Shown here: one piece after another, positions 5,851 through 55,195 of the stretch
How the letters are laid out: each line of letters opens with the position of its first letter
How positions within the stretch are numbered: position 1 is the stretch's first letter
Source of the DNA: Aestuariimicrobium kwangyangense DSM 21549
Lineage (GTDB): Bacteria > Actinomycetota > Actinomycetes > Propionibacteriales > Propionibacteriaceae
Length of the DNA stretch: 64,000 nucleotides
NCBI RefSeq assembly: GCF_000421525.1
Contig: NZ_ATXE01000002.1
Span: 62,001-126,000 of the forward strand
Reading direction: 5' to 3'
Notes under the pieces: generated by a model
Seen by the model: the letters and a program-made list of their open reading frames with translations, nothing else
Told to the model about the DNA's origin: nothing
Database searches by the model: none
Program-made: the position numbers and the translations under genes

Positions 5851-8367
5851 ATGGCGACCCGCGCGTCTTCCCCACCGCGGTCGTCGGGCAAGTCCTCCTC
5901 GAGGTCTTCGTCCGGCACGCGGTCGTCCGGAAGTTCCTCCAAGTCCACCGCCCGATCCGGCACCAGCCGCTCGACCCAGTCGAGGGGACGATCGTCCGCG
6001 CGGCCACGCTCCGGCGGCCTGGGCAAGGGACTGGCAGCCCTGTGGCGCGGAACGGCTGGCCTGCTCGGCAGCGGAGCCCGCAAGGTCGGCGACACCGCTC
6101 TTGAGGTCGACCCAGAACTGCGCCGCGACGGTGCCGGTCTGTTCCTGCTGGGGTCGGCCATCGTGGTGGCAGCCGTGTTCTGGTTCGGCCTTCCCGACCC
6201 GGTCGGTGGCTGGCTCGAGATCGGCATCTCCACCATCTTCGGGGCGATCAGCTACGCCCTGCCCCTGTTCTGCCTGGGGATGGCGTGGCGCACTCTGAGA
6301 CACCCGCAGAAGAACGGACCCACCGGACGACAGGTGGTGGGCTGGTCGGCCTTCTTCCTCGGCGTGCTCGGGCTGGTCAACATCATGAAGGACTCGCCGA
6401 GCCCCGCCGATGCACCGGCCCTGAGGGCCGCTGGCGGAGCGTTGGGCTACATCAGTTCGTCGATGCTCACCCAGTTGCTCACCGTCTGGGTCGCAGTTCC
6501 GTTGCTGGTGCTGCTGTCACTGTTCGGCATCATCGTGATCATCGGCATGCCGCTGTGGGAGATCGCAGACCGGCTGCGCGACCACCACGACCGCCTGCAG
6601 GCACACCGGGCCGAGCGCGCCGAACAACGGGCGGCCCTGGTCACCGAGGTGGACAAGGCCTACGACTCACCGCTGGTCAGCGACGACGACGAGCCCACCG
6701 ACCTGTTCGACGCCGTTCCCGACGGTGCTCGCGACGACACCGGCGTCTATGACCATGACGCCGTGGAGTCGGTGCGCCGACAGCCCGGCGAGGCCCCCGC
6801 GGTCGATCGCAGCCAGGTGGGACTGCCACCAGAACCCAAACTGCAGGCCCCACCCCACACGCCGGTTCCGGCGCGGGTCGAACAGTTGGTGCTGTCGGGC
6901 GACGTGCAGTACGTGCTGCCGCAGCCCTCGATGCTCAAGGCCGGCACCGCGCCGAAGGCCAAGACACCGGCCAGCGACGCCATCGTGGCGCGCCTCACCG
7001 AGGTGCTGAACCAGTTCGAGATCGACGCCACGGTGACCGGCTACACCCGTGGTCCGACCGTGACCCGCTATGAGGTCGAGCTGGGACAGGCCGTCAAGGT
7101 CGAGAAGGTGACGGCACTGTCGAAGAACATCGCCTACGCGGTGGCCTCTCCCGAGGTGCGCATCCTGTCGCCCATCCCGGGCAAGTCGGCGATCGGCATC
7201 GAGATCCCCAATCTCGACAAGGAGATCGTCTCGCTGGGTGACGTGCTCCGTTCCCCCCGCGCCATGAACGACCACCACCCCATGACGGTCGGGCTGGGCA
7301 AGGACGTCGAGGGCGGGTTCGTGATCGCGAACATGGCCAAGATGCCCCACCTGTTGGTGGCTGGCGCGACCGGCTCGGGCAAGTCGTCCTTCATCAACTC
7401 GCTGATCACCTCGATCATGATGCGCTCGACCCCTGACGAGGTCAGGTTGCTGCTGGTCGACCCGAAGCGGGTGGAACTGACCGCCTACGAGGGCATCCCC
7501 CACCTGGTCACCCCCATCATCACCAACGCCAAGAAGGCGGCCGACGCGCTGCAGTGGGTCGTCCGTGAGATGGACCTGCGCTACGACGACCTCGCAGCCT
7601 TCGGGTTCCGTCACGTCGACGACTTCAACGCCGCCGTTCGGGCGGGCACGGTCAAGGTGCCGGAAGCCTCGGAGCGGGTGCTCGCGCCCTATCCCTACCT
7701 GCTGGTGGTCGTCGACGAGTTGGCCGACCTGATGATGGTGGCGCCCCGTGACGTCGAGGACTCCATCGTCCGCATCACCCAGTTGGCCCGGGCCGCCGGT
7801 ATCCACCTCGTGCTGGCCACCCAGCGTCCCTCGACCGATGTCGTCACCGGACTGATCAAGGCCAATGTGCCCTCGCGGCTGGCCTTCGCCACGTCGTCGA
7901 TGACCGACTCACGCGTCATCCTCGACCAGCCCGGGGCCGAAAAGCTCGTCGGCCAGGGCGACGGGCTCTTCCTGCCGATGGGGGCCGGCAAGCCGATCCG
8001 GGTGCAGGGAGCCTGGGTGGGGGAGCGCGAGGTGCGCTCCGTGGTGGAGTCGATCCGCACCCAGCTCCAGCCCCAGTACCGCGAGGACGTCGTCGCTCCC
8101 GCCGCGGGAAGCCAGAAGGTCGCTGAGGACATCGGTGACGACCTGGAACTGGTGATCGACGCTGCGAAGCTGGTGGTCGAGCTGCAGCTGGGTTCGACCT
8201 CGATGCTGCAGCGCAAGCTCAGGGTCGGCTTTGCCAAGGCCGGCCGTCTGATGGACATCCTCGAGACCCGCGGCGTGGTCGGCCCCTCCGAGGGGTCGAA
8301 GCCCCGGGAGGTGCTGGTGAAGCCGGACGAGCTCGACACGGTGCTCGAGAACCTCCCCCTGGGCTGA
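5851..8367 (+). CDS. ftsK: DNA translocase FtsK
   Basis: FtsK pumps chromosomal DNA through the closing septum and activates dimer resolution. The 838-residue protein has a Ser/Arg-rich basic N-terminus (about 1-60), roughly four membrane segments (about 95-113, 122-147, 161-178, 200-232), a short charged linker, then the motor domain. Walker A is AGATGSGKSS (around 505-512) and Walker B is LLLVDPKRVEL (around 533-543); the RecA-like core also shows LVLATQRPSTDV. The C-terminal about 70 residues form the gamma winged helix that reads orienting sequences (LGSTSMLQRKLRVGF). Length is normal for actinobacterial FtsK with a short linker. Confidence 0.97.
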   Translation: MATRASSPPRSSGKSSSRSSSGTRSSGSSSKSTARSGTSRSTQSRGRSSARPRSGGLGKGLAALWRGTAGLLGSGARKVGDTALEVDPELRRDGAGLFLLGSAIVVAAVFWFGLPDPVGGWLEIGISTIFGAISYALPLFCLGMAWRTLRHPQKNGPTGRQVVGWSAFFLGVLGLVNIMKDSPSPADAPALRAAGGALGYISSSMLTQLLTVWVAVPLLVLLSLFGIIVIIGMPLWEIADRLRDHHDRLQAHRAERAEQRAALVTEVDKAYDSPLVSDDDEPTDLFDAVPDGARDDTGVYDHDAVESVRRQPGEAPAVDRSQVGLPPEPKLQAPPHTPVPARVEQLVLSGDVQYVLPQPSMLKAGTAPKAKTPASDAIVARLTEVLNQFEIDATVTGYTRGPTVTRYEVELGQAVKVEKVTALSKNIAYAVASPEVRILSPIPGKSAIGIEIPNLDKEIVSLGDVLRSPRAMNDHHPMTVGLGKDVEGGFVIANMAKMPHLLVAGATGSGKSSFINSLITSIMMRSTPDEVRLLLVDPKRVELTAYEGIPHLVTPIITNAKKAADALQWVVREMDLRYDDLAAFGFRHVDDFNAAVRAGTVKVPEASERVLAPYPYLLVVVDELADLMMVAPRDVEDSIVRITQLARAAGIHLVLATQRPSTDVVTGLIKANVPSRLAFATSSMTDSRVILDQPGAEKLVGQGDGLFLPMGAGKPIRVQGAWVGEREVRSVVESIRTQLQPQYREDVVAPAAGSQKVAEDIGDDLELVIDAAKLVVELQLGSTSMLQRKLRVGFAKAGRLMDILETRGVVGPSEGSKPREVLVKPDELDTVLENLPLG

Positions 8368-8409
8368 GTCCGGTGTGGCCGGGCCATTCCCCTGGGGGCT
8401 CGGTCGGCC

Positions 8410-8415
8410 TATCGT
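8410..8415 (+). promoter_or_regulatory. -10 box of the A1-B1 gene pair
   Basis: TATCGT ends six bases before the ATG at 8422, matching the leaderless spacing used elsewhere in the window. The second pair has the same arrangement (10789-10794). Confidence 0.5.
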
Positions 8416-8421
8416 CTGTGC

Positions 8422-9540
8422 ATGGCAGACGATGACGTCGACGACCACGAGGACTTCGCGGCCAGCCACGGCGCCCCGCTGCAGCAGTTCGCCGAGCAGC
8501 TGACGGGCGATCCCGACGCGGCCAGCGCGTTGGTCGACGCGGCCCTGTCCGACGTGTGGGCCGAACGTCATCGGCTCGACAGCGCGGAGTGGCCCGCCTT
8601 CGCCCGCGAGCGAGTGGCGCGCCGCTGGGCCCGTCGTTCCGGGTGGCCCACCCCGATCGCGGAGGAACGGGTCGACCAGGCAGCCCGACCGGGCACGGAT
8701 GCGATCGTCGCCGCCGGACACGCGATGGCGACCCGCCGTGGCCTGATGGTGGCCGGGGCCACGGGTGTTGCTGCCCTGGGGGGCGCCCTGTGGCAGTCCC
8801 TGGCGACGGCCGGCCGCGGGAGTCGGGTCCTCGTCGACGGGTTCGCCCTCGACGTCTCGTCCCCGCAGGGGGACCCGACCGGGCCGGTGGTGCGGATCAG
8901 TCGCCGTGGTGATCTCCTGGCCGAGTTCGCGACCGCCCGGGAGCGCCCGATGACCTCGATCACTCCGCTGCCCGACGGGCGCGACCTGGTGGCGGTCTGG
9001 CTGCGCGGGGAGGTGGAAGCCGTCGACCTCGTCGGTGCGGGCTCAGAACCGGTGATGCCCACGACCCTGGTGCATCCGGGTCACGGCACGTTGGCGTTGG
9101 CGATCGGACGAGCCGTCGGGCGCCTGCCGGTGGTCACGTACCTCTCCGACCCGGGGTACCGCAGCGAGCCGCCACGGGTGCCGCAGGCCCTGGTCGACTG
9201 GTCCCCCCACCGGATCACCGGCTACTTCGCCCCCCAGACGGGGGTGTTCGTGCTGCAGAAGCCCCACCGGGAGGTGTTGGTGGGGCGCGGGGAGAACCAG
9301 GCGACGGTCTTCCTCGCTGACATCGGCGCCGAGACCCAACTGCTGGTGGTGCAGAGCTGGAGCCTGGTGGCAGCCACCCTGTCCCGGGACGGTGCACCCT
9401 TGCCGGCGTTGCGGCAGGTGTTCCAGAACGGTGCCCTGGTGTGTGCCCTGCTCGAACCACCGGCCTCCCCGGCCCACCCTGTCGATGTCGTGGTGGTCGG
9501 GGTCAACGGACTGGTCAGCATCCGGGTGGTGGGCCGATGA
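8422..9540 (+). CDS. A1: membrane protein with sigma-region-2-like N-terminus, unknown function
   Basis: No described family is recognised. The 372-residue protein has an acidic start (MADDDVDDHEDF), then residues about 12-72 laid out like region 2 of an ECF or SigE-type sigma factor: LQQFAEQLTGDPDAASALVD, DVW, and a basic stretch ending VARRWARR. Residues about 107-130 are hydrophobic after TRR, which predicts one membrane segment with the N-terminus inside. The remaining roughly 240 residues are rich in beta-prone segments and would lie outside. There is no C-terminal helix-turn-helix (region 4). It is a paralogue of A2 (10801-11937); the N-termini align as DDDVxxHEDF and both end with PPASPxHPV. 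Its stop overlaps the start of B1 (ATGA). Confidence 0.8.
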   Translation: MADDDVDDHEDFAASHGAPLQQFAEQLTGDPDAASALVDAALSDVWAERHRLDSAEWPAFARERVARRWARRSGWPTPIAEERVDQAARPGTDAIVAAGHAMATRRGLMVAGATGVAALGGALWQSLATAGRGSRVLVDGFALDVSSPQGDPTGPVVRISRRGDLLAEFATARERPMTSITPLPDGRDLVAVWLRGEVEAVDLVGAGSEPVMPTTLVHPGHGTLALAIGRAVGRLPVVTYLSDPGYRSEPPRVPQALVDWSPHRITGYFAPQTGVFVLQKPHREVLVGRGENQATVFLADIGAETQLLVVQSWSLVAATLSRDGAPLPALRQVFQNGALVCALLEPPASPAHPVDVVVVGVNGLVSIRVVGR

Positions 9541-10727
9541 AGCGCGAGCAGTTCGACGAGTTGGTGCTGGGCCACCGGGGGCGGGCCGTGGCCTCGGCCG
9601 CCCAATTGCTGGGCCTGCCCACCGCCGACGGACGAGTCGTCGCGGCAGCCGACCGGGCGCTGGCCGACGTGTGGTCCCGCCGGTGGATGTGGTGGGCCGA
9701 CCCGGTGGTGCTGTTGCGTCGCGCGCTGGTCCGACACACGCACCCGGGCAGGAAGCCGGAGCCGGTGGTTCGCTGGCCCCCCAACGCCGTGGAATGGCGG
9801 GCGCGTGCCGCGGCCGCCAGGACCGAGCACGTCGACCCCGCCGGCGTGCCCCGCAGGGCCGTGATCGTCGGCGGCGTCGGTGTCGCCACCGCCGCCGGCG
9901 CCACCACTCTGGGGCTGGCGGTGCACGACGCGGTACGCAGCACCCGGACCACCATCGACGGGGGCACCCGGCTCCGCCTGACCATCGACATCCTGGGGCA
10001 CGGCAACCGGCGCCAGGCCAAGGTCTACACCTCCGACCCACGCTGGTCGCCCTCCTTGCCGGCGCTGATCGGCTCCTTCGTGGTTGATGCCGCCCACGGC
10101 ACCAGCGTCGTGTTGCCCACGGCAGGCCTGTCGGACGACGCGACCCTGCAGACCCTCCTGCTGCACCAGCCGGGTCTGGTCTTCGCCGACCTCGTGAACA
10201 CCGCCGTGGTGCCCTTCGCCGCCAGCGCAGAGGAGCCCTTCGCAGCCGGGCTCTTCTCGTTGGACGCCTACGGGCCGTCCACCCTCGTGTGGGGAGATGA
10301 GGCCGGTGGGGTGTTCGGCGACGCCTGGATCGTGCACGGACCCTTCCCGGGTGACCCCGGGCGGATCTGCTACCTCTCCCACGACCACCTGGTCGTGCGT
10401 CACCTCACGCGGGGGCTCTCGCAGATGCGATTGAGCTCCCACCCGGTCACGGTTCGTCCGGCCTGGGGACGAACCGACGCCCCCGGGGTGACGGTCCACG
10501 GGCTCGGACTGGTCGACGGCACGGGCCTGGTCGCCGTGACGGCCGACGAACCTGGGGAACTGTCGTGGGACCTGCCCAGTCTGGCGACCTCTCGTGCGGT
10601 GTCGGGCACGGGCAGGTTCTGGCACGTGCCTGCCCTGCCGCAGGCCACCCGTCCCGGTGACCCGTTCGAGGTGCGGCTGACGCTGCGGACGGCACGCGAC
10701 GAGGTGCAGTACGTGGTGTCGTTCTGA
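9537..10727 (+). CDS. B1: membrane protein, partner of A1, sigma-region-2-like N-terminus, unknown function
   Basis: A 396-residue protein beginning MKREQFDELVLGHRGRAVAS. The first about 75 residues follow the SigE-family sigma region 2 pattern (AAQLLGLPTADGRVVAAADR, ALADVWSRRW, LLRRALVRH). The hydrophobic segment around residues 105-125 follows PRR, and the long C-terminal part is predicted extracytoplasmic. It has no DNA-binding region 4. It is paralogous to B2 (11934-13205), with shared starts (M-K/N-REQF) and a shared LVWGDxAGxV motif in the outer domain. The start is set by the ATGA overlap with A1, which implies fixed stoichiometry of A and B. A longer opening upstream from 9441 lies inside A1 and is not used. 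Confidence 0.8.
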   Translation: MKREQFDELVLGHRGRAVASAAQLLGLPTADGRVVAAADRALADVWSRRWMWWADPVVLLRRALVRHTHPGRKPEPVVRWPPNAVEWRARAAAARTEHVDPAGVPRRAVIVGGVGVATAAGATTLGLAVHDAVRSTRTTIDGGTRLRLTIDILGHGNRRQAKVYTSDPRWSPSLPALIGSFVVDAAHGTSVVLPTAGLSDDATLQTLLLHQPGLVFADLVNTAVVPFAASAEEPFAAGLFSLDAYGPSTLVWGDEAGGVFGDAWIVHGPFPGDPGRICYLSHDHLVVRHLTRGLSQMRLSSHPVTVRPAWGRTDAPGVTVHGLGLVDGTGLVAVTADEPGELSWDLPSLATSRAVSGTGRFWHVPALPQATRPGDPFEVRLTLRTARDEVQYVVSF

Positions 10728-10742
10728 TCTCGGACGCCGGCG

Positions 10743-10768
10743 GCGCCAGGCAGCGCCAGGCAGCGCCG
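10743..10768. repeat. 10-bp direct repeat between the two gene pairs
   Basis: GCGCCAGGCA occurs at 10743-10752 and again at 10753-10762, followed by a partial third copy GCGCCG. It lies in the 73-base gap between B1 and A2. Confidence 0.6.
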
Positions 10769-10788
10769 AACCCCGTTCGTCGGCGGAC

Positions 10789-10794
10789 TAGCCT
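10789..10794 (+). promoter_or_regulatory. -10 box of the A2-B2 gene pair
   Basis: TAGCCT ends six bases before the ATG at 10801, the same geometry as the box of the A1-B1 pair, so each pair probably has its own leaderless promoter. Confidence 0.5.
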
Positions 10795-10800
10795 GTCGGT

Positions 10801-11937
10801 ATGCGGATCGACGACGACGTCGAGGCTCACGAGGACTTCGTGACCACCTACGGCGACGACCTGCAGGCGGTGGCCGACGCGCTCGTCTCCGATCGTGGCG
10901 TCGCCGAGCAATTGGTCGATCGGACCCTGACCGACCTCTGGCGTGAGCGTGCGAGTCTTCGCGGCGAGCTGCGGGCCGGCTGGGCGCGCCGCCACCTGGC
11001 CCAGCTGTGGGCGATGGGTGGGCAATGGCCGACACCGTCCAGGCAGCGAGCTGCTGCCGGTCTGGCGCGCACCGGGGTCCTATCGCCGGTGATCGACGAG
11101 GGGTCGAGGCGACTGAGCACCACCCTCTCGAGGGTGACGGTGGCCGGTGTCATCGCGGTCACCGGGGCCACGATCGCCTCGACCGGCCACGGCTGGCCCG
11201 TGCAGGTGGCTGGCGAGCAACTGAAACTGCTGCCGAGCGGCGACGGCGATGACGCGTGGCTGCAGCTGTGGCACGCGGATCGACTGCTGGCCGAGTTCTC
11301 GCACGCCGTCGACGAACCCACCACGGTGACCGTGCCGTGGTCCGGCGACCCGGCCTCGCCCCGCACCCTGATCGCCTCGTGGGTGCGGGGGGAGTGGACT
11401 GCCATCGACTGGGTCAACACTCCGGACGGCGGGGTGTGCACGGGAGTCGTGCTGGGCCTGGGACTGGCGGGCGTGCAGGTCTCGATCGGCCTGGCGCTCG
11501 TCGACGGCCCGTGGCCGCTGCCCATGGTCGTGCGCAGCGACGGGCAGTCCTTCCTCAGTGAGGTGCCCCGCTCCGTGGTCGGATTCCGTGACACTCCCGA
11601 GCGAGGGATCTCGGGCTATCACGTGTCGTGGGGGGACACCCTCGTCCTGGCCGAACCGGTCCACGTCGTGATGACCCGTCACCTGGGCCACGAATTCGTC
11701 CTCCACCTCGGACCTGTGATCCACGACAGCCAGCTGCTGGCCGTCAGGGCACACTCCGGTTCTGCTCCGTCGCTGTGGCGCAACGGGGTCGAACTGGCCA
11801 CCGGGATCGTCGACAGCCCCCACCTCGGGCCGATCGTGATGGCGGTCTGCCGTCCGCCTGCCAGCCCGGGACATCCGGTCGAGGTGCGATGGTTCGGGTC
11901 AGAGGGCCTGCCTCACAGGGCCGTGGTGAACGCATGA
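10801..11937 (+). CDS. A2: paralogue of A1, membrane protein with sigma-region-2-like N-terminus
   Basis: A 378-residue protein starting MRIDDDVEAHEDFVTTYGDD, clearly paralogous to A1. Region-2-like features are LQAVADALVSDRGVAEQLVD and DLWRERA, followed by WARRHLAQLW. A hydrophobic segment around residues 110-128 (VTVAGVIAVTGATIAS) precedes a predicted outer domain that ends RPPASPGHPVEVRWFG. The region after the membrane segment aligns with A1 around LLAEF. There is no region 4 helix-turn-helix. It overlaps B2 by ATGA. A1 and A2 appear well diverged, so the duplication is not recent. Function unknown; a membrane-held sensor or regulator is only a guess. Confidence 0.8.
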   Translation: MRIDDDVEAHEDFVTTYGDDLQAVADALVSDRGVAEQLVDRTLTDLWRERASLRGELRAGWARRHLAQLWAMGGQWPTPSRQRAAAGLARTGVLSPVIDEGSRRLSTTLSRVTVAGVIAVTGATIASTGHGWPVQVAGEQLKLLPSGDGDDAWLQLWHADRLLAEFSHAVDEPTTVTVPWSGDPASPRTLIASWVRGEWTAIDWVNTPDGGVCTGVVLGLGLAGVQVSIGLALVDGPWPLPMVVRSDGQSFLSEVPRSVVGFRDTPERGISGYHVSWGDTLVLAEPVHVVMTRHLGHEFVLHLGPVIHDSQLLAVRAHSGSAPSLWRNGVELATGIVDSPHLGPIVMAVCRPPASPGHPVEVRWFGSEGLPHRAVVNA

Positions 11938-13205
11938 ACCGGGAGCAGTTCGAGGCTTGGTGGGGAATGCGTCGACCGGCCGCGATCGCCGTCTCGGCGA
12001 CCTTGATGGGACTGACTGCCGACCACCCCGATGTCACCACCGTCGTGGACCGTGCCTTCGCCGGGGTGTGGGCGCGGCGGTGGGTCGTCGAGGACGCGGA
12101 CCACCTGCTCCGACTGCTGCTGGTGCGGCACAGCCGGCCCGTCGAGGTGGGGCTTCGGCCCAGTGACAGCCCTTCGAACACCTGGCTGCTGCGTGGTCGA
12201 GCCGAACGGGCTCGGGCAGCGGAGGGGCTGAGGCCGTGGGATGGCCCACCGGTGCACCCCCGTGGGGTGGTCGAGGGCGGTCGACTGCCTCGGGGGCTCG
12301 GCTCAGCACTGGGTCGCAGAGCCGTCAGCAGACGGACCCTCGCTGGTGCTGCCCTCGTGGTGCCGCTCGCCGCTCTCGGGGCGTGGGTCCTCACCTCGAA
12401 GGGGGTCGTTGAGACCGAGACATTGATGATGATCGGCAGTGGGTTCGCCTTGCGCATCCGGGTGGGTTCCCCGGACCGTCCGACGGCGCGACTGGTCCGG
12501 TTGCCCTCCGAGAGCGACCACGGGGTCGGGCTCGCGGCCATACCGCTGTTGGACGACGCCACCGCTGGCACACCCACCACGGGGATCCTGCCGGCGGGGG
12601 AGCCCGACCTCGGCAGTGAGCGGGTGCTGGTCGTCCACCACCCGCAGTTGGCGTGGGCCGACCTGGTCGATGCCGAAGGTCCCGTCTCACTGAGCCACGA
12701 CCGTCCACACCGAGTGGCCGCCGGTGTGTACCCCAGGTCGACCAGGACCACGCGCGCCCTCGTGTGGGGCGACCTCGCGGGACGCGTGCACGGTGCGGCG
12801 GTTGACGCCTGGGCCGTGGTTCCCACCCGACCCGACGCGGTCGTCTACCTCGCCGGGTCGTCCCTGGTGGTCAGACTTCTGTCGGACGAGGCAGCAGGCC
12901 TGCCACAGCCCGTCGCATCCGAGCACCTGCTGGGGCTCCGGCCGACCGGTCCCACACTCGACGTGGGGCTGGTGGCGCAACGGATCACCCTGCCGGACGG
13001 CTGGGTGGTGATCGCCGTGACGTGGTCGAGCGCCCAGGGCGATGCCTCGGCCGTGAACCTGACCTGGCATCTCGAGGGGGCCACGGCAGTGATGGCCAGC
13101 GTCCCGAACACCCGTGTGTGGTACCTGCCGCAGGAGCCCAGCAGTTACCCCGACCTGGTTCTCGAACTGGGAGGTCGGCACGCGACCTTCGTCATCGAGG
13201 CTTGA
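11934..13205 (+). CDS. B2: paralogue of B1, membrane protein with sigma-region-2-like N-terminus
   Basis: A 423-residue protein starting MNREQFEAWWGMRRPAAIAV, paralogous to B1. The first about 75 residues again copy the SigE-type region 2 layout (SATLMGLTADHPDVTTVVDR, AFAGVWARRW, LLRLLLVRHSRP). A linker follows, then a hydrophobic segment near 140-160 preceded by SRR, then a beta-rich outer domain with LVWGDLAGRV as in B1. The start is fixed by the ATGA overlap with A2. A hairpin-like GGTGC/GCACC (13220-13233) follows the stop, before rimO. No enzymatic motif is visible. Confidence 0.8.
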   Translation: MNREQFEAWWGMRRPAAIAVSATLMGLTADHPDVTTVVDRAFAGVWARRWVVEDADHLLRLLLVRHSRPVEVGLRPSDSPSNTWLLRGRAERARAAEGLRPWDGPPVHPRGVVEGGRLPRGLGSALGRRAVSRRTLAGAALVVPLAALGAWVLTSKGVVETETLMMIGSGFALRIRVGSPDRPTARLVRLPSESDHGVGLAAIPLLDDATAGTPTTGILPAGEPDLGSERVLVVHHPQLAWADLVDAEGPVSLSHDRPHRVAAGVYPRSTRTTRALVWGDLAGRVHGAAVDAWAVVPTRPDAVVYLAGSSLVVRLLSDEAAGLPQPVASEHLLGLRPTGPTLDVGLVAQRITLPDGWVVIAVTWSSAQGDASAVNLTWHLEGATAVMASVPNTRVWYLPQEPSSYPDLVLELGGRHATFVIEA

Positions 13206-13274
13206 CCTGGGCGCTGGGGGGTGCGGGAGCACCGTCACCCGAGGCGCCGCAGCGGATGAGATACTGGGCCCATC

Positions 13275-14717
13275 ATGACTGACCTGATGAACGTGCACCT
13301 GGTCACCTTGGGCTGTGCCCGCAACGAGGTCGACTCCGAAGAACTCGCCGCCCGACTCGAGGCTGGCGGCTTCCGGTTGGTCGACGACGCAGAAGAGGCC
13401 GACACCGTGATGGTGAACACCTGCGGCTTCGTCGAGCAGGCCAAGAAGGACTCCATCGACACCCTCATCGAGGCCTCGGAACTGAAGGGCGAGGGCCGCG
13501 CGAAGGCAGTGGTCGCCGTGGGTTGCATGGCTGAGCGCTACGGCAAGGAACTCGCCGACTCGCTGCCGGAGGCCGACGCCGTGCTGGGCTTCGACGACTA
13601 CACCGACATTGCAGGACGACTCCAGACCATCCTGGCCGGCGGTCACCACGAGGCCCACGTGCCCCGTGACCGTCGCAGCCTGCTGCCCCTGACCCCGGTG
13701 GCCCGCTCGGCCGCCGCTGGGGGGGTCGCCATCCCCGGGCACGGAACCGCTCACCTGACCGACCTCCCGGAGGGCCTGGCGCCGGTGAGCGGTCCGCGCA
13801 CGCTGCGCAAGAGGTTGGGCAATTCCCCTTACGCACCGCTGAAGATCGCCTCGGGCTGTGACCGTCGCTGCGCCTTCTGCGCCATCCCCAGGTTCCGGGG
13901 TTCCTACCTGTCCCGGGCGGCGTCCGATGTCGTCGAGGAGGCGCGCTGGCTGGTCGACCACGGGGTGAAGGAAGTCTTCCTCGTGAGCGAGAACTCCTCG
14001 TCCTACGGCAAGGACCTCGGCGACCTGCGCGCCCTGGAGAAGTTGCTCGGTGACCTGTCCGCGGTGGACGGACTCGACTGGATTCGGGTCTCGTACCTGC
14101 AGCCCGCCGAGTTGAGGCCCTCCCTGGTGGAGGCGATGGTGTCCACCGACAAGGTGGTGCCCTACTTCGACCTGTCGTTCCAGCACGCATCGGGGTCGGT
14201 GCTGCGGCGCATGCGTCGCTTCGGCGACGCCGAGAGCTTCCTGGGGCTGATCGACAGCGTGCGCACGCTCGCCCCTCAGGCTGGGATCCGCTCGAACGTG
14301 ATCGCCGGCTTCCCCGGTGAGACCGAGGCAGACGTCGAAACGCTCAAGCAGTTCCTCATCGACGCCCGACTGGACGTGGTCGGGGTGTTCGGGTACTCCG
14401 ACGAGGACGAGACGGAGGCACTGGGCCTGAGTGACCACGTCGACCCAGACGAGGTCGAGGCCCGTGCCGCGACGATCTCGGACCTCGCCGCAGAACTGTG
14501 CGCCCAGCGGGCCGAGGACCGGATCGGTGAGGTGCTCACCGTGCTGGTCGAGTCGGTCGACGGGGGAGAGGTGACCGGACGAGCCGAGCACCAGGGCCCC
14601 GAGGTCGATGGCACCACCACGGTGGTGGGACCCCGAGCAGAGGTCGGGGAGTTCGTCCTGGCCGCCGTCACCGCATCGGACGGCGTCGACCTGATCGCGG
14701 AACCGGTCGGCTCGTGA
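13275..14717 (+). CDS. rimO: ribosomal protein uS12 methylthiotransferase RimO
   Basis: RimO is a radical-SAM enzyme that adds a methylthio group to an aspartate of ribosomal protein S12. The 480-residue protein has the N-terminal MTTase domain ([26 protein letters not shown]) with its own cluster cysteines, then the radical-SAM motif CDRRCAFC (CxxxCxxC) and a C-terminal TRAM-like domain. CARNEVDSE and GSYLSRA mark it as RimO rather than MiaB, which is present separately at 28398. GATACT at 13260-13265 may be the -10 box, giving a very short leader. Its stop overlaps the pgsA GTG start. Confidence 0.95.
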
Positions 14718-54071: not shown

Positions 54072-54998
54072 TCAGGCGGCCGTGGTCCTCAGGGCGGCCA
54101 AGGCGTTGCGTTCAATCTGGCGCACCCGTTCAGCGGTGATGCCCCAGACTGCCCCGATGTCTGCCAGCTTGGCCTGTCGTCCGTCCAGCAGGCCGTAGCG
54201 ACGCCGCACCACATCGGCCGAGCGCGCGTCCAAGTTCTTCAACATGCCCTCCAGCACTCCACGGTCCTGCCCGTTGAGCACCTCCTCGTCGGGGCCGGGG
54301 GCGTTCTCGCGGGCAATCAGGTCACCCAGCGCGGTGTCGCCGTCCTCGTCGACGGGGGCGTCGAGCGAGACGTGTTCCCGGCTGTAGCGGATCAGCTCGA
54401 CGACTCGCTCCGGCTCAAGCGCGAGTTCGGCAGCGATCTCCTCGACCTCGGGCTCGCGACCCAGTTGGCGCTCGAGGTTGCGGCGTGCGGCCGAGACCTG
54501 GTTGACCTGCTCGGCGACGTGAACGGGCAGCCGGACGATGCGGCCCTGCTGGGCGATACCGCGGCTGATGGCCTGCCGCACCCACCAGGTGGCGTAGGTC
54601 GAGAACTTGAATCCCTTGGTGTAGTCGAACTTCTCCACGGCGCGGATCAGACCCGTGTTGCCCTCCTGCACCATGTCGAGCAGGGGCATGGGGGCACGCG
54701 AGTACTTGCGGGCGACACTCACCACCAGTCGCAGGTTCGCCCGGACGAAGTGCTGCATGGCGCGGTCGCCGTCGTCGGCGATGGCCTGCAACTCCTCGGT
54801 CGTTGCATCAATCCGGCTGGTCACCGTTCCGTCGAGCAGCGCCTGCGCGAACACACCGGCCTCGATCCGGCTGGCGAGTTCGACCTCCTCCTCGGCATTG
54901 AGCAGAGGTGTCTTCGCGATCGACTCGAGGTAGAGCCCGACCGCGTCCTTGCCGTCGATTCCGTCACTGCTTCGAGTGCGCGTCCTGGTGGTGATCAT
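54072..54998 (-). CDS. sigB: SigB-type group 2 RNA polymerase sigma factor
   Basis: A 308-residue non-essential-type sigma-70 factor. It has region 1.2 (DAVGLYLESIAKTPLLNAEE), region 2 with [20 protein letters not shown], region 3 (VHVAEQVNQVSAARRNLERQ) and region 4 (LADIGAVWGITAERVRQIER). It lacks the long region 1.1 of the primary sigma factor at 58755. Two starts are possible: ATG 54998 with GAAAGGGG upstream (chosen) and ATG 55022. A SigB-like gene near the primary sigma gene is usual in actinobacteria. No anti-sigma gene is adjacent. Confidence 0.92.
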   Translation of the reverse strand: MITTRTRTRSSDGIDGKDAVGLYLESIAKTPLLNAEEEVELASRIEAGVFAQALLDGTVTSRIDATTEELQAIADDGDRAMQHFVRANLRLVVSVARKYSRAPMPLLDMVQEGNTGLIRAVEKFDYTKGFKFSTYATWWVRQAISRGIAQQGRIVRLPVHVAEQVNQVSAARRNLERQLGREPEVEEIAAELALEPERVVELIRYSREHVSLDAPVDEDGDTALGDLIARENAPGPDEEVLNGQDRGVLEGMLKNLDARSADVVRRRYGLLDGRQAKLADIGAVWGITAERVRQIERNALAALRTTAA

Positions 54999-55195
54999 CC
55001 GGGTGCCCCTTTCATGCGACATTCACCCTGTTCAACGCCCGGAAGGCGAGAAATGTTGCGCGCCACCACCGCGGTTGGCCCCAAGTACGCCAACAGCGAT
55101 CAGCGAGTAAGACCGTGGTCGTACTCGACCCCGAGAGGACCGGCGAGATCGACCCCATTGACCGTGGGGTACCCGGAAGCGCACGATGGGCGGCA

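Follow-up and report, generated by a model that had tools for sequence, protein, structure and literature searches.

Four adjacent genes of Aestuariimicrobium kwangyangense DSM 21549—here termed A1, B1, A2 and B2—encode two pairs of proteins that look, on sequence grounds, like membrane-anchored pseudo-sigma proteins rather than sigma factors or binders of the RNA polymerase clamp. The genes lie between an ftsK-like gene (5851–8367) and rimO (13275–14717) on the forward strand of a 64,000-nucleotide stretch (NCBI RefSeq assembly GCF_000421525.1, contig NZ_ATXE01000002.1, positions 62,001 to 126,000), hereafter the window, in which all coordinates are given unless a locus is named (Table 1). 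The N-terminal part, or head, of A1 and of A2 descends from region 2 of SigE-type extracytoplasmic function (ECF) sigma factors, a conclusion that we hold firmly from sequence profiles and a fold model, and the B heads are likely, if less securely, to share that descent. At a probability of about 0.4, we interpret each A–B pair as a sensor-tethered sigma mimic that would act as a heteromer.

Among the 18950 models of NCBIfam, TIGR02983 (SigE-type sigma factors) was matched by residues 4–70 of A1 (E 5.2e-7) and residues 6–69 of A2 (E 4e-4), in both cases within model positions 3–70, and the same stretch was matched by the head of an A-like protein from the second genome of the genus, G037 (E 7.4e-4). 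At 29.7 and 20.3 bits, A1 and A2 score far below the 141.55-bit cut-off of the family. An hhalign profile comparison between the three A heads and a set of 14 SigE-type sigma factors gave an E-value of 1.2e-14, and the A2 head alone reached 1.9e-10. Scored singly, the heads of A1, A2 and G037 obtained 64, 55 and 42 against shuffle maxima of 18–20, with none of 100 shuffles equalling any of them. Each head keeps 19–23 of 32 class-conserved columns, a count that has no chance baseline.

The initial annotation, made by reading the sequence, had proposed a structure prediction as a check on the sigma-2 fold, and the outcome for A1 was sigma-like. An AlphaFold model built from a two-row alignment had a mean predicted local distance difference test (pLDDT) score of 43.8 and was good in the head only (76–86 by blocks, residues 11–70). 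In VIA-align, whose rows are a re-examination of Foldseek's own candidates, the eight top rows for residues 1–79 were sigma factors or chains of transcription complexes. The best was 6dv9_F (with Mycobacterium tuberculosis sigma L; Z 11.4, 3.3 Å, 79 residues); five of the eight were titled sigma factors (6dv9_F, 7qh5, 5wuq, 5wur and 5uxx) and 9m9d and 9m9e were chains of an M. tuberculosis initiation complex. Because VIA-align warns that helical bundles at Z below about 13 may reflect a mere common arrangement, the fold supports the sequence result and cannot stand alone. The last of the eight, second-best by score (head residues 3–75, Z 10.5), was chain C, unnamed in the row, of the RNA-guided transcription complex 9n9q. 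Rows ranked after the eight, at Z 8.7 and lower, fall on the C-terminal Ig-like part of A1.

The least credible of the readings considered is that the head is an unrelated helical bundle, its likeness to sigma factors arising by chance. Searching PDB sequences with the A1, A2 and G037 heads gave four weak matches (best E 0.021), none of them a sigma factor, all Pfam matches of the A heads stayed below cut-off (among them PhyR_sigma2 against A1, E 0.014–0.037), Foldseek with the whole A1 and B1 models found nothing below E 0.001, and the VIA-align scores lie under the level just mentioned; set against these, three diverged heads converge, far above shuffles, on one stretch of a single SigE model out of the whole of NCBIfam, the hhalign result is strong and the eight best fold rows agree. 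This reading is close to refuted for the A heads, though not for the B heads. A described family with another function had also been named as a result that would count against sigma ancestry, and no Pfam or NCBIfam model covers the A or B proteins over its cut-off.

The match to a SigE profile made in this analysis (171 positions) ends at position 104 in A1 and at 68 in A2, and the other matched open reading frames (ORFs) reach at least position 141, within region 4, in 45 of 45 cases (one place counted twice). These matches came from 47 of 50 loci drawn by searches with A or TIGR02983, which include other ECF-type sigma factors of the same genome; the three loci with no sigma match are L006, which holds a phosphatase, L023, which holds a longer sigma-like protein of different build, and L096. 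B1 and B2 have no sigma-4 match in Pfam or NCBIfam, and the earlier statement that region 4 is absent from all four proteins stands.

The description of the heads as clamp-binding fared otherwise. The DAED-type acids of sigma region 2.2 usually contact beta' (PMC8999054). The fourth DAED position is Asp or Glu in 44 of 44 unique ECF-type sigma ORFs, but Ala, Gln and Arg in the heads of A1, A2 and G037, and Ala and Thr in B1 and B2, where the alignment is less certain. The third position, acidic in 36 of the 44, is acidic among these heads in A2 only. The heads thus seem to have retained the fold while losing the polymerase contact. Since both region 4 and the acidic residue of region 2.2 are lost, we read the head as a pseudo-sigma domain and not as a sigma factor, and the loss of the clamp acid makes titration of RNA polymerase a less likely form of the idea.

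Two alternatives bear directly on these losses. The version put forward at the outset, in which a clamp binder held at the membrane titrates RNA polymerase, has the sigma-2 homology of the A heads on its side, as has its variant of a tethered sigma factor freed by proteolysis; ECF48, ECF52, ECF53 and IutY, which are fused to membrane segments and whose release by proteolysis is either supposed or demonstrated (PMC8999054), offer a precedent. We consider it improbable in both forms, as region 4 is absent, the acid found in 44 of 44 sigma factors is missing, and EcfP (ECF43), a sigma factor without the DAED acids, is inactive until phosphorylated by a kinase (PMC8999054). A split sigma factor, in which the A head would give region 2 and another protein region 4, deserves still less credence. 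RsoA, the sigma-2-only subunit of SigO-RsoA, which works with a region 4 partner (PMC8103513), is a precedent for A as a separate region-2-only polypeptide; unlike in that system, the co-translated B shows no region 4 match, and the clamp acid is lost and A is probably anchored in the membrane.

The case for the B heads is of a different order. TIGR02983 matched B2 weakly, though in register (E 0.027), and B1 not at all. A profile of the B heads scored 17.6 against SigE, the maximum of 100 shuffles being 15.2; the B1 head alone passed its shuffle maximum narrowly (15.8 against 15.5), and the B2 head alone was equalled or beaten by 5 of 100 shuffles. Compared with the heads of A1 and A2, the B heads scored 25.4 (maximum 24.0 in 200 shuffles, a narrow margin), and with the G037 head added 27.6 (shuffle maximum 21.1). 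A PDB sequence search with the B heads gave five weak matches and no sigma factor; the 50 VIA-align rows listed for B1 likewise contain no sigma row, a result that barely tests the B1 head. An Asp common to the heads of A1, A2, B1 and B2 was found at that place in 0 of 44 sigma factors. Over 65 residues the heads carry net charges of −9 (A1), −5 (A2), +3 (B1) and +1 (B2); 43 sigma segments average −0.9 and span values from −5 to 3, by which measure the B2 head is ordinary. Of the earlier claim that all four proteins begin with sigma region 2, the part concerning A1 and A2 is firm, and for the B heads, which we take as likely descendants of the same region, the support is weak.

Other features of the gene layout were as first described. 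Each A gene is joined to its B gene by an ATGA overlap, which suggests co-translation of the two, and each pair stands behind TANNNT-N6-ATG. That spacing precedes 9 of 4183 RTG sites on both strands of the window, and ftsK (start 5851) is a third gene that has it. A TANNNT-type hexamer six bases before ATG is the layout of leaderless transcripts, and its presence suggests that the transcripts of ftsK, A1 and A2 are leaderless. A1 and A2 are paralogues (32% identity across nearly the full length, E 2e-40), as are B1 and B2 (31%, E 7e-21); the genome holds these two A and two B copies and no further ones. The GC content at third codon positions of the four genes (0.82–0.90) is like that of their neighbours (ftsK 0.89, rimO 0.88), and models of defence systems gave no match to them.

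A and B would each cross the membrane once and have their N-termini on the inside. The longest uncharged run, of 21–27 residues, follows the head and its linker at the same place in every one of five proteins (A1, A2, B1, B2 and the A-like protein of G037), though A2 holds a run of nearly equal length elsewhere. Arg-Arg immediately precedes this run in A1, B1, B2 and G037, not in A2. The usual Kyte–Doolittle threshold for a membrane helix is 1.6; the best 19-residue values within the segment are 1.24 (A1), 1.47 (A2), 1.65 (G037), 1.68 (B1) and 2.02 (B2). The initial annotation had a membrane segment with Arg-Arg on its inner side in all four proteins: the uncharged run holds for all and the Arg-Arg for three, with low hydropathy and the displaced arginines of A2 on the other side, and a role as anchor is plausible but soft.

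Signals for the twin-arginine translocation (Tat) pathway are weakly hydrophobic, richer in glycine and marked by a twin Arg, and the last helix of actinobacterial Rieske proteins is inserted by Tat (PMC7317946). The genome encodes TatC, and TIGR01409 matched A1 at E 0.9, below cut-off; we regard insertion of the anchors by Tat as a hypothesis that deserves a test and not as a finding. The Tat-like stretches of Arg-Arg and Gly/Ala-rich residues in A1, B1, B2 and G037 (P0006) follow an inner head, an unusual, internal position for a Tat signal.

The outer parts had been described as beta-rich domains, and the models of A1 and B1 do consist there mostly of strands, at low confidence. The immunoglobulin (Ig)-like sandwiches modelled at their C-termini are a common fold and say little. 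Since a profile comparison of the outer parts of A, B and G037 revealed no relation, being no better than shuffles, only its location, its layout and its head tie the G037 gene to A.

Taken together, these results fit a mechanism in which the inner head of A, and probably that of B, is a region 2 captured from a SigE-type ECF sigma factor that kept its three-helix core and dropped region 4 and the acidic clamp residue of region 2.2. The outer part would be a beta-rich, perhaps partly Ig-like, domain for sensing or binding. A, with its acidic head, and B, with its neutral to basic one, would form a heteromer; coupled translation, related heads, the shared Asp and the difference in charge are our reasons for supposing that the two work together. 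The state of the outer domain would then control whether the pseudo-sigma heads hold a protein that binds region 2, most simply an anti-sigma domain, as the sigma-like domain of PhyR takes NepR. By this analogy the head may serve to decoy an anti-sigma factor, or some other protein that binds sigma region 2. A fuller version, in which receptors of a hitherto undescribed transmembrane class, with a captured, clamp-blind sigma region 2 as output, acting as acidic/basic A–B pairs and possibly inserted by Tat, relay an envelope signal by catching or releasing sigma-2-binding regulators, goes further and is rather unlikely as a whole.

Several findings weigh against the sensor-tethered mimic. Helix 4 of class I anti-sigma factors binds the very surface of regions 2.1–2.2 through which the clamp is contacted (PMC7406223), so without the acid the hold on an anti-sigma factor could just as well be weakened. 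No sigma gene stands beside the pairs, whose neighbours are ftsK-like and rimO; across the window the SigE profile found A1 and A2 only and no adjacent ECF sigma gene. The hydropathy of the membrane segment is low, and in A1 and A2 the maximum of the protein falls outside it. The outer domains of A, B and G037 have no significant family match in Pfam or NCBIfam, in addition to the negative profile comparison above; hhalign gave the B heads E 0.025 and a probability of 2% against SigE; and the PDB search with the A heads, as noted, found no sigma factor. Finally, just two genomes are known to have the layout, and in the assembly of the second the gene carries a frameshift.

That narrow distribution is also part of the case for a different reading, in which the head is a relic or re-used scaffold: the sigma-2 bundle would be a stable cytosolic plug, acquired by gene fusion, that helps A and B to pair or to be positioned, perhaps for envelope or division functions beside ftsK, and has no role in transcription. 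The missing region 4 and clamp acid fit such a plug, as do fast divergence (32% identity between paralogues) and the search results in samples of the family, order and class, in which no full-length A relative was found among the matches listed for 147, 342 and 394 genomes, respectively. Of the two genomes in the genus, one (G000, the genome studied here) has A1-B1-A2-B2 and the other, G037, a single A-like gene in the same ftsK–rimO interval, which by reading holds a phosphodiesterase-like gene, the A-like gene and an ada/alkA-like gene; B was not found in G037. The A-like gene (L055, 3531–4738, reverse strand) is frameshifted near a GGGG run, by assembly error or decay. The survey of related genomes called for at the outset thus yielded one A-like gene between ftsK and rimO, no B and, among the matches listed, no full-length pair elsewhere.

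In the 147 family genomes, A1 matched its own two copies, three short heads and one protein of G142, and B1 its own copies only. The G142 match (A1 residues 63–185) was rejected as an A relative, the protein proving to be a phosphoserine phosphatase. An A profile matched at least 148 of 342 order genomes at E 0.01, own genome included, and the matches listed were of head length save two (G310, 171–267; G343, 157–211), which were weak, had a stop inside each and were judged to be chance. At E 1e-7 the same profile found one match besides its own in the 394 class genomes, in an ORF that has region 4. A B profile gave four weak partial matches in two genus and 293 order genomes, the outer part of the G037 protein found itself and seven weak partial matches in 197 family genomes, and two further scans of genome contigs found none.

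The setting of the genes bears on the plug reading as well. The pairs had been said to interrupt a conserved ftsK-rimO-pgsA synteny. NCBIfam confirmed RimO and PgsA over cut-off, with FtsK as best match yet below cut-off, and the rimO–pgsA gap is at most 280 bp in 29 of 29 loci. From 49 relatives with a rimO match, 33 were looked at and ftsK was found in 24; where both genes were found, 14 relatives have an ftsK–rimO gap shorter than 250 bp and the other 10 a gap of 0.6–4.7 kb. By reading of ORFs in eight loci (L055, L056, L062, L065, L066, L068, L069 and L070; the gaps of L040 and L041 were checked by profile alone), gap contents include aminotransferases, an aldo/keto reductase and YafY-type regulators. 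The ftsK–rimO interval (8367–13275 in the window; L026–L074 in relatives) is a flexible cargo site in the family and not strictly conserved, which counts in favour of the plug reading. On the other side, the head is still recognisable in A1, A2 and G037, and fusions of pseudo-sigma and membrane parts recur with an unrelated outer domain in another genus, which suggests that the sigma part itself is useful. We judge the re-used plug nearly as likely as the sigma-mimic heteromer. Elsewhere in the window, 41 kb from the pairs, lies a SigB-like gene of primary sigma type (54072–55022, reverse strand).

The recurrent fusions came to light when the SigE profile was run on 1961 ORFs from rimO loci. 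Besides the G037 head, it matched P0007 (in L060), a 493-residue protein of G018 in genus g19 (E 4.5e-7), in which a degenerate sigma-like part is followed by a stretch rich in Arg, by a membrane span and by about 270 residues of outer domain. P0007 matched TIGR02983 at E 0.0016 over positions 13–144 of 162, and Pfam Sigma70_r4_2 at E 1.2e-4, below cut-off. Its relatives in 198 family genomes are confined to g19, save a weak partial match in G301 (g29) with one stop inside. Those in G097 (63% identity) and G143 match the SigE profile over regions 2 and 4, and that in G345 (L123) over region 4 only; a second G018 copy and one in G119 carry the outer domain with no sigma match, in lipoprotein-like genes (L124 and L126). 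P0007 and the G143 protein (L122) have lost the clamp acid; it is kept in G097 (L121) and unreadable in G345, where region 2 does not match the profile. These fusions resemble A, as its topology is predicted, in running from a degenerate SigE-like N-terminus through an Arg-rich stretch and a membrane span to an outer domain, and differ in that region 4 is still visible and the outer domain is another one: the P0007 search found nothing in G000 or G037, nor any link of the g19 outer domain to A or B. These sequences suggest that sigma heads became fused to membrane proteins on more than one occasion.

Table 1. Coordinates of the A–B gene pairs, their predicted parts and the comparable fusions of genus g19
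Feature	Position	Strand	Basis or remark
A1	8422..9540	+	372 aa; head like sigma region 2, followed by a probable membrane anchor and a beta-rich outer part
B1	9537..10727	+	396 aa; start overlaps A1 stop (ATGA at 9537)
A2	10801..11937	+	378 aa; paralogue of A1
B2	11934..13205	+	423 aa; paralogue of B1; start overlaps A2 stop (ATGA at 11934)
TATCGT, −10-like hexamer	8410..8415	+	6 bases 5' of A1 ATG; leaderless-type start
TAGCCT, −10-like hexamer	10789..10794	+	6 bases 5' of A2 ATG
A1 sigma region 2-like head, residues 1–79	8422..8658	+	TIGR02983, hhalign, fold model
A2 sigma region 2-like head	10801..11040	+	TIGR02983, hhalign, shuffles
B1 head, probable diverged sigma-2-like domain (weak support)	9537..9746	+	hhalign, shuffles, comparison with A heads
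B2 head, probable diverged sigma-2-like domain (weak support)	11934..12143	+	TIGR02983 in register
A1 probable membrane anchor, Tat-like	8734..8814	+	Arg-Arg (residues 105–106) and 25 uncharged Gly/Ala-rich residues
B1 probable membrane anchor	9852..9926	+	Arg-Arg and 23 uncharged residues
A2 probable membrane anchor	11134..11214	+	27-residue uncharged run; Arg-Arg (residues 103–104) eight residues upstream
B2 probable membrane anchor, Tat-like	12330..12398	+	Arg-Arg and 21 uncharged residues
A1 C-terminal Ig-like sandwich, 84 residues	9286..9537	+	low-confidence model; VIA-align Z 8.0–8.7
B1 C-terminal Ig-like sandwich, 84 residues	10473..10724	+	low-confidence model; best Z 7.6
g19 pseudo-sigma/membrane fusion	L060 1649–3127	-	shared outer domain
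g19 pseudo-sigma/membrane fusion	L121 1498–2982	-	shared outer domain
g19 pseudo-sigma/membrane fusion	L122 1495–3066	-	shared outer domain
g19 pseudo-sigma/membrane fusion	L123 1024–2655	+	shared outer domain

The initial annotation had called the arrangement new, and it is so in part. Membrane-fused sigma factors are represented by ECF48, ECF52 and ECF53 (e.g. SCO4117) and by IutY (PMC8999054, PMC5826349), which share with A, as its topology is predicted, a sigma part inside, a membrane span and an outer C-terminal domain. All of these have been described as sigma factors, and the three ECF groups bear an anti-sigma-like segment of zinc-finger (ZAS) type; A has a region 2 head only, with no complete sigma 2–4 part, and A and B are paired. 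Pfam revealed no such zinc-finger segment in A or B, which contain 0–2 Cys each, and neither Pfam nor NCBIfam revealed a known anti-sigma domain, the mark of membrane anti-sigma factors. SigE-type ECF sigma factors themselves resemble the A heads in region 2 sequence and fold and differ from A in possessing region 4 and the clamp acid, A being below the family cut-off and probably membrane-anchored. Mimicry, too, is known: PhyR has a sigma-like domain with degenerate RNA polymerase contacts that captures the anti-sigma factor NepR (PMC8103513). A shares the degenerate contacts in a region 2 only, whereas PhyR is a response regulator and A, probably membrane-anchored, has no receiver domain match in Pfam. 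Sigma–membrane fusions, split sigma factors and sigma mimics have thus been described, and in the parts of the literature searched no description was found of a paired, region-2-only, clamp-degenerate membrane form.

A membrane-fixed, region-2-only, clamp-degenerate head paired with a paralogue would unite membrane-fused sigma factors with PhyR-type mimicry, sigma domains having been re-used as protein-binding modules in receptors. Under the fuller and rather unlikely version given above, the g19 fusions, with their unrelated outer domain, would make pseudo-sigma receptors a recurring signalling route in these bacteria.

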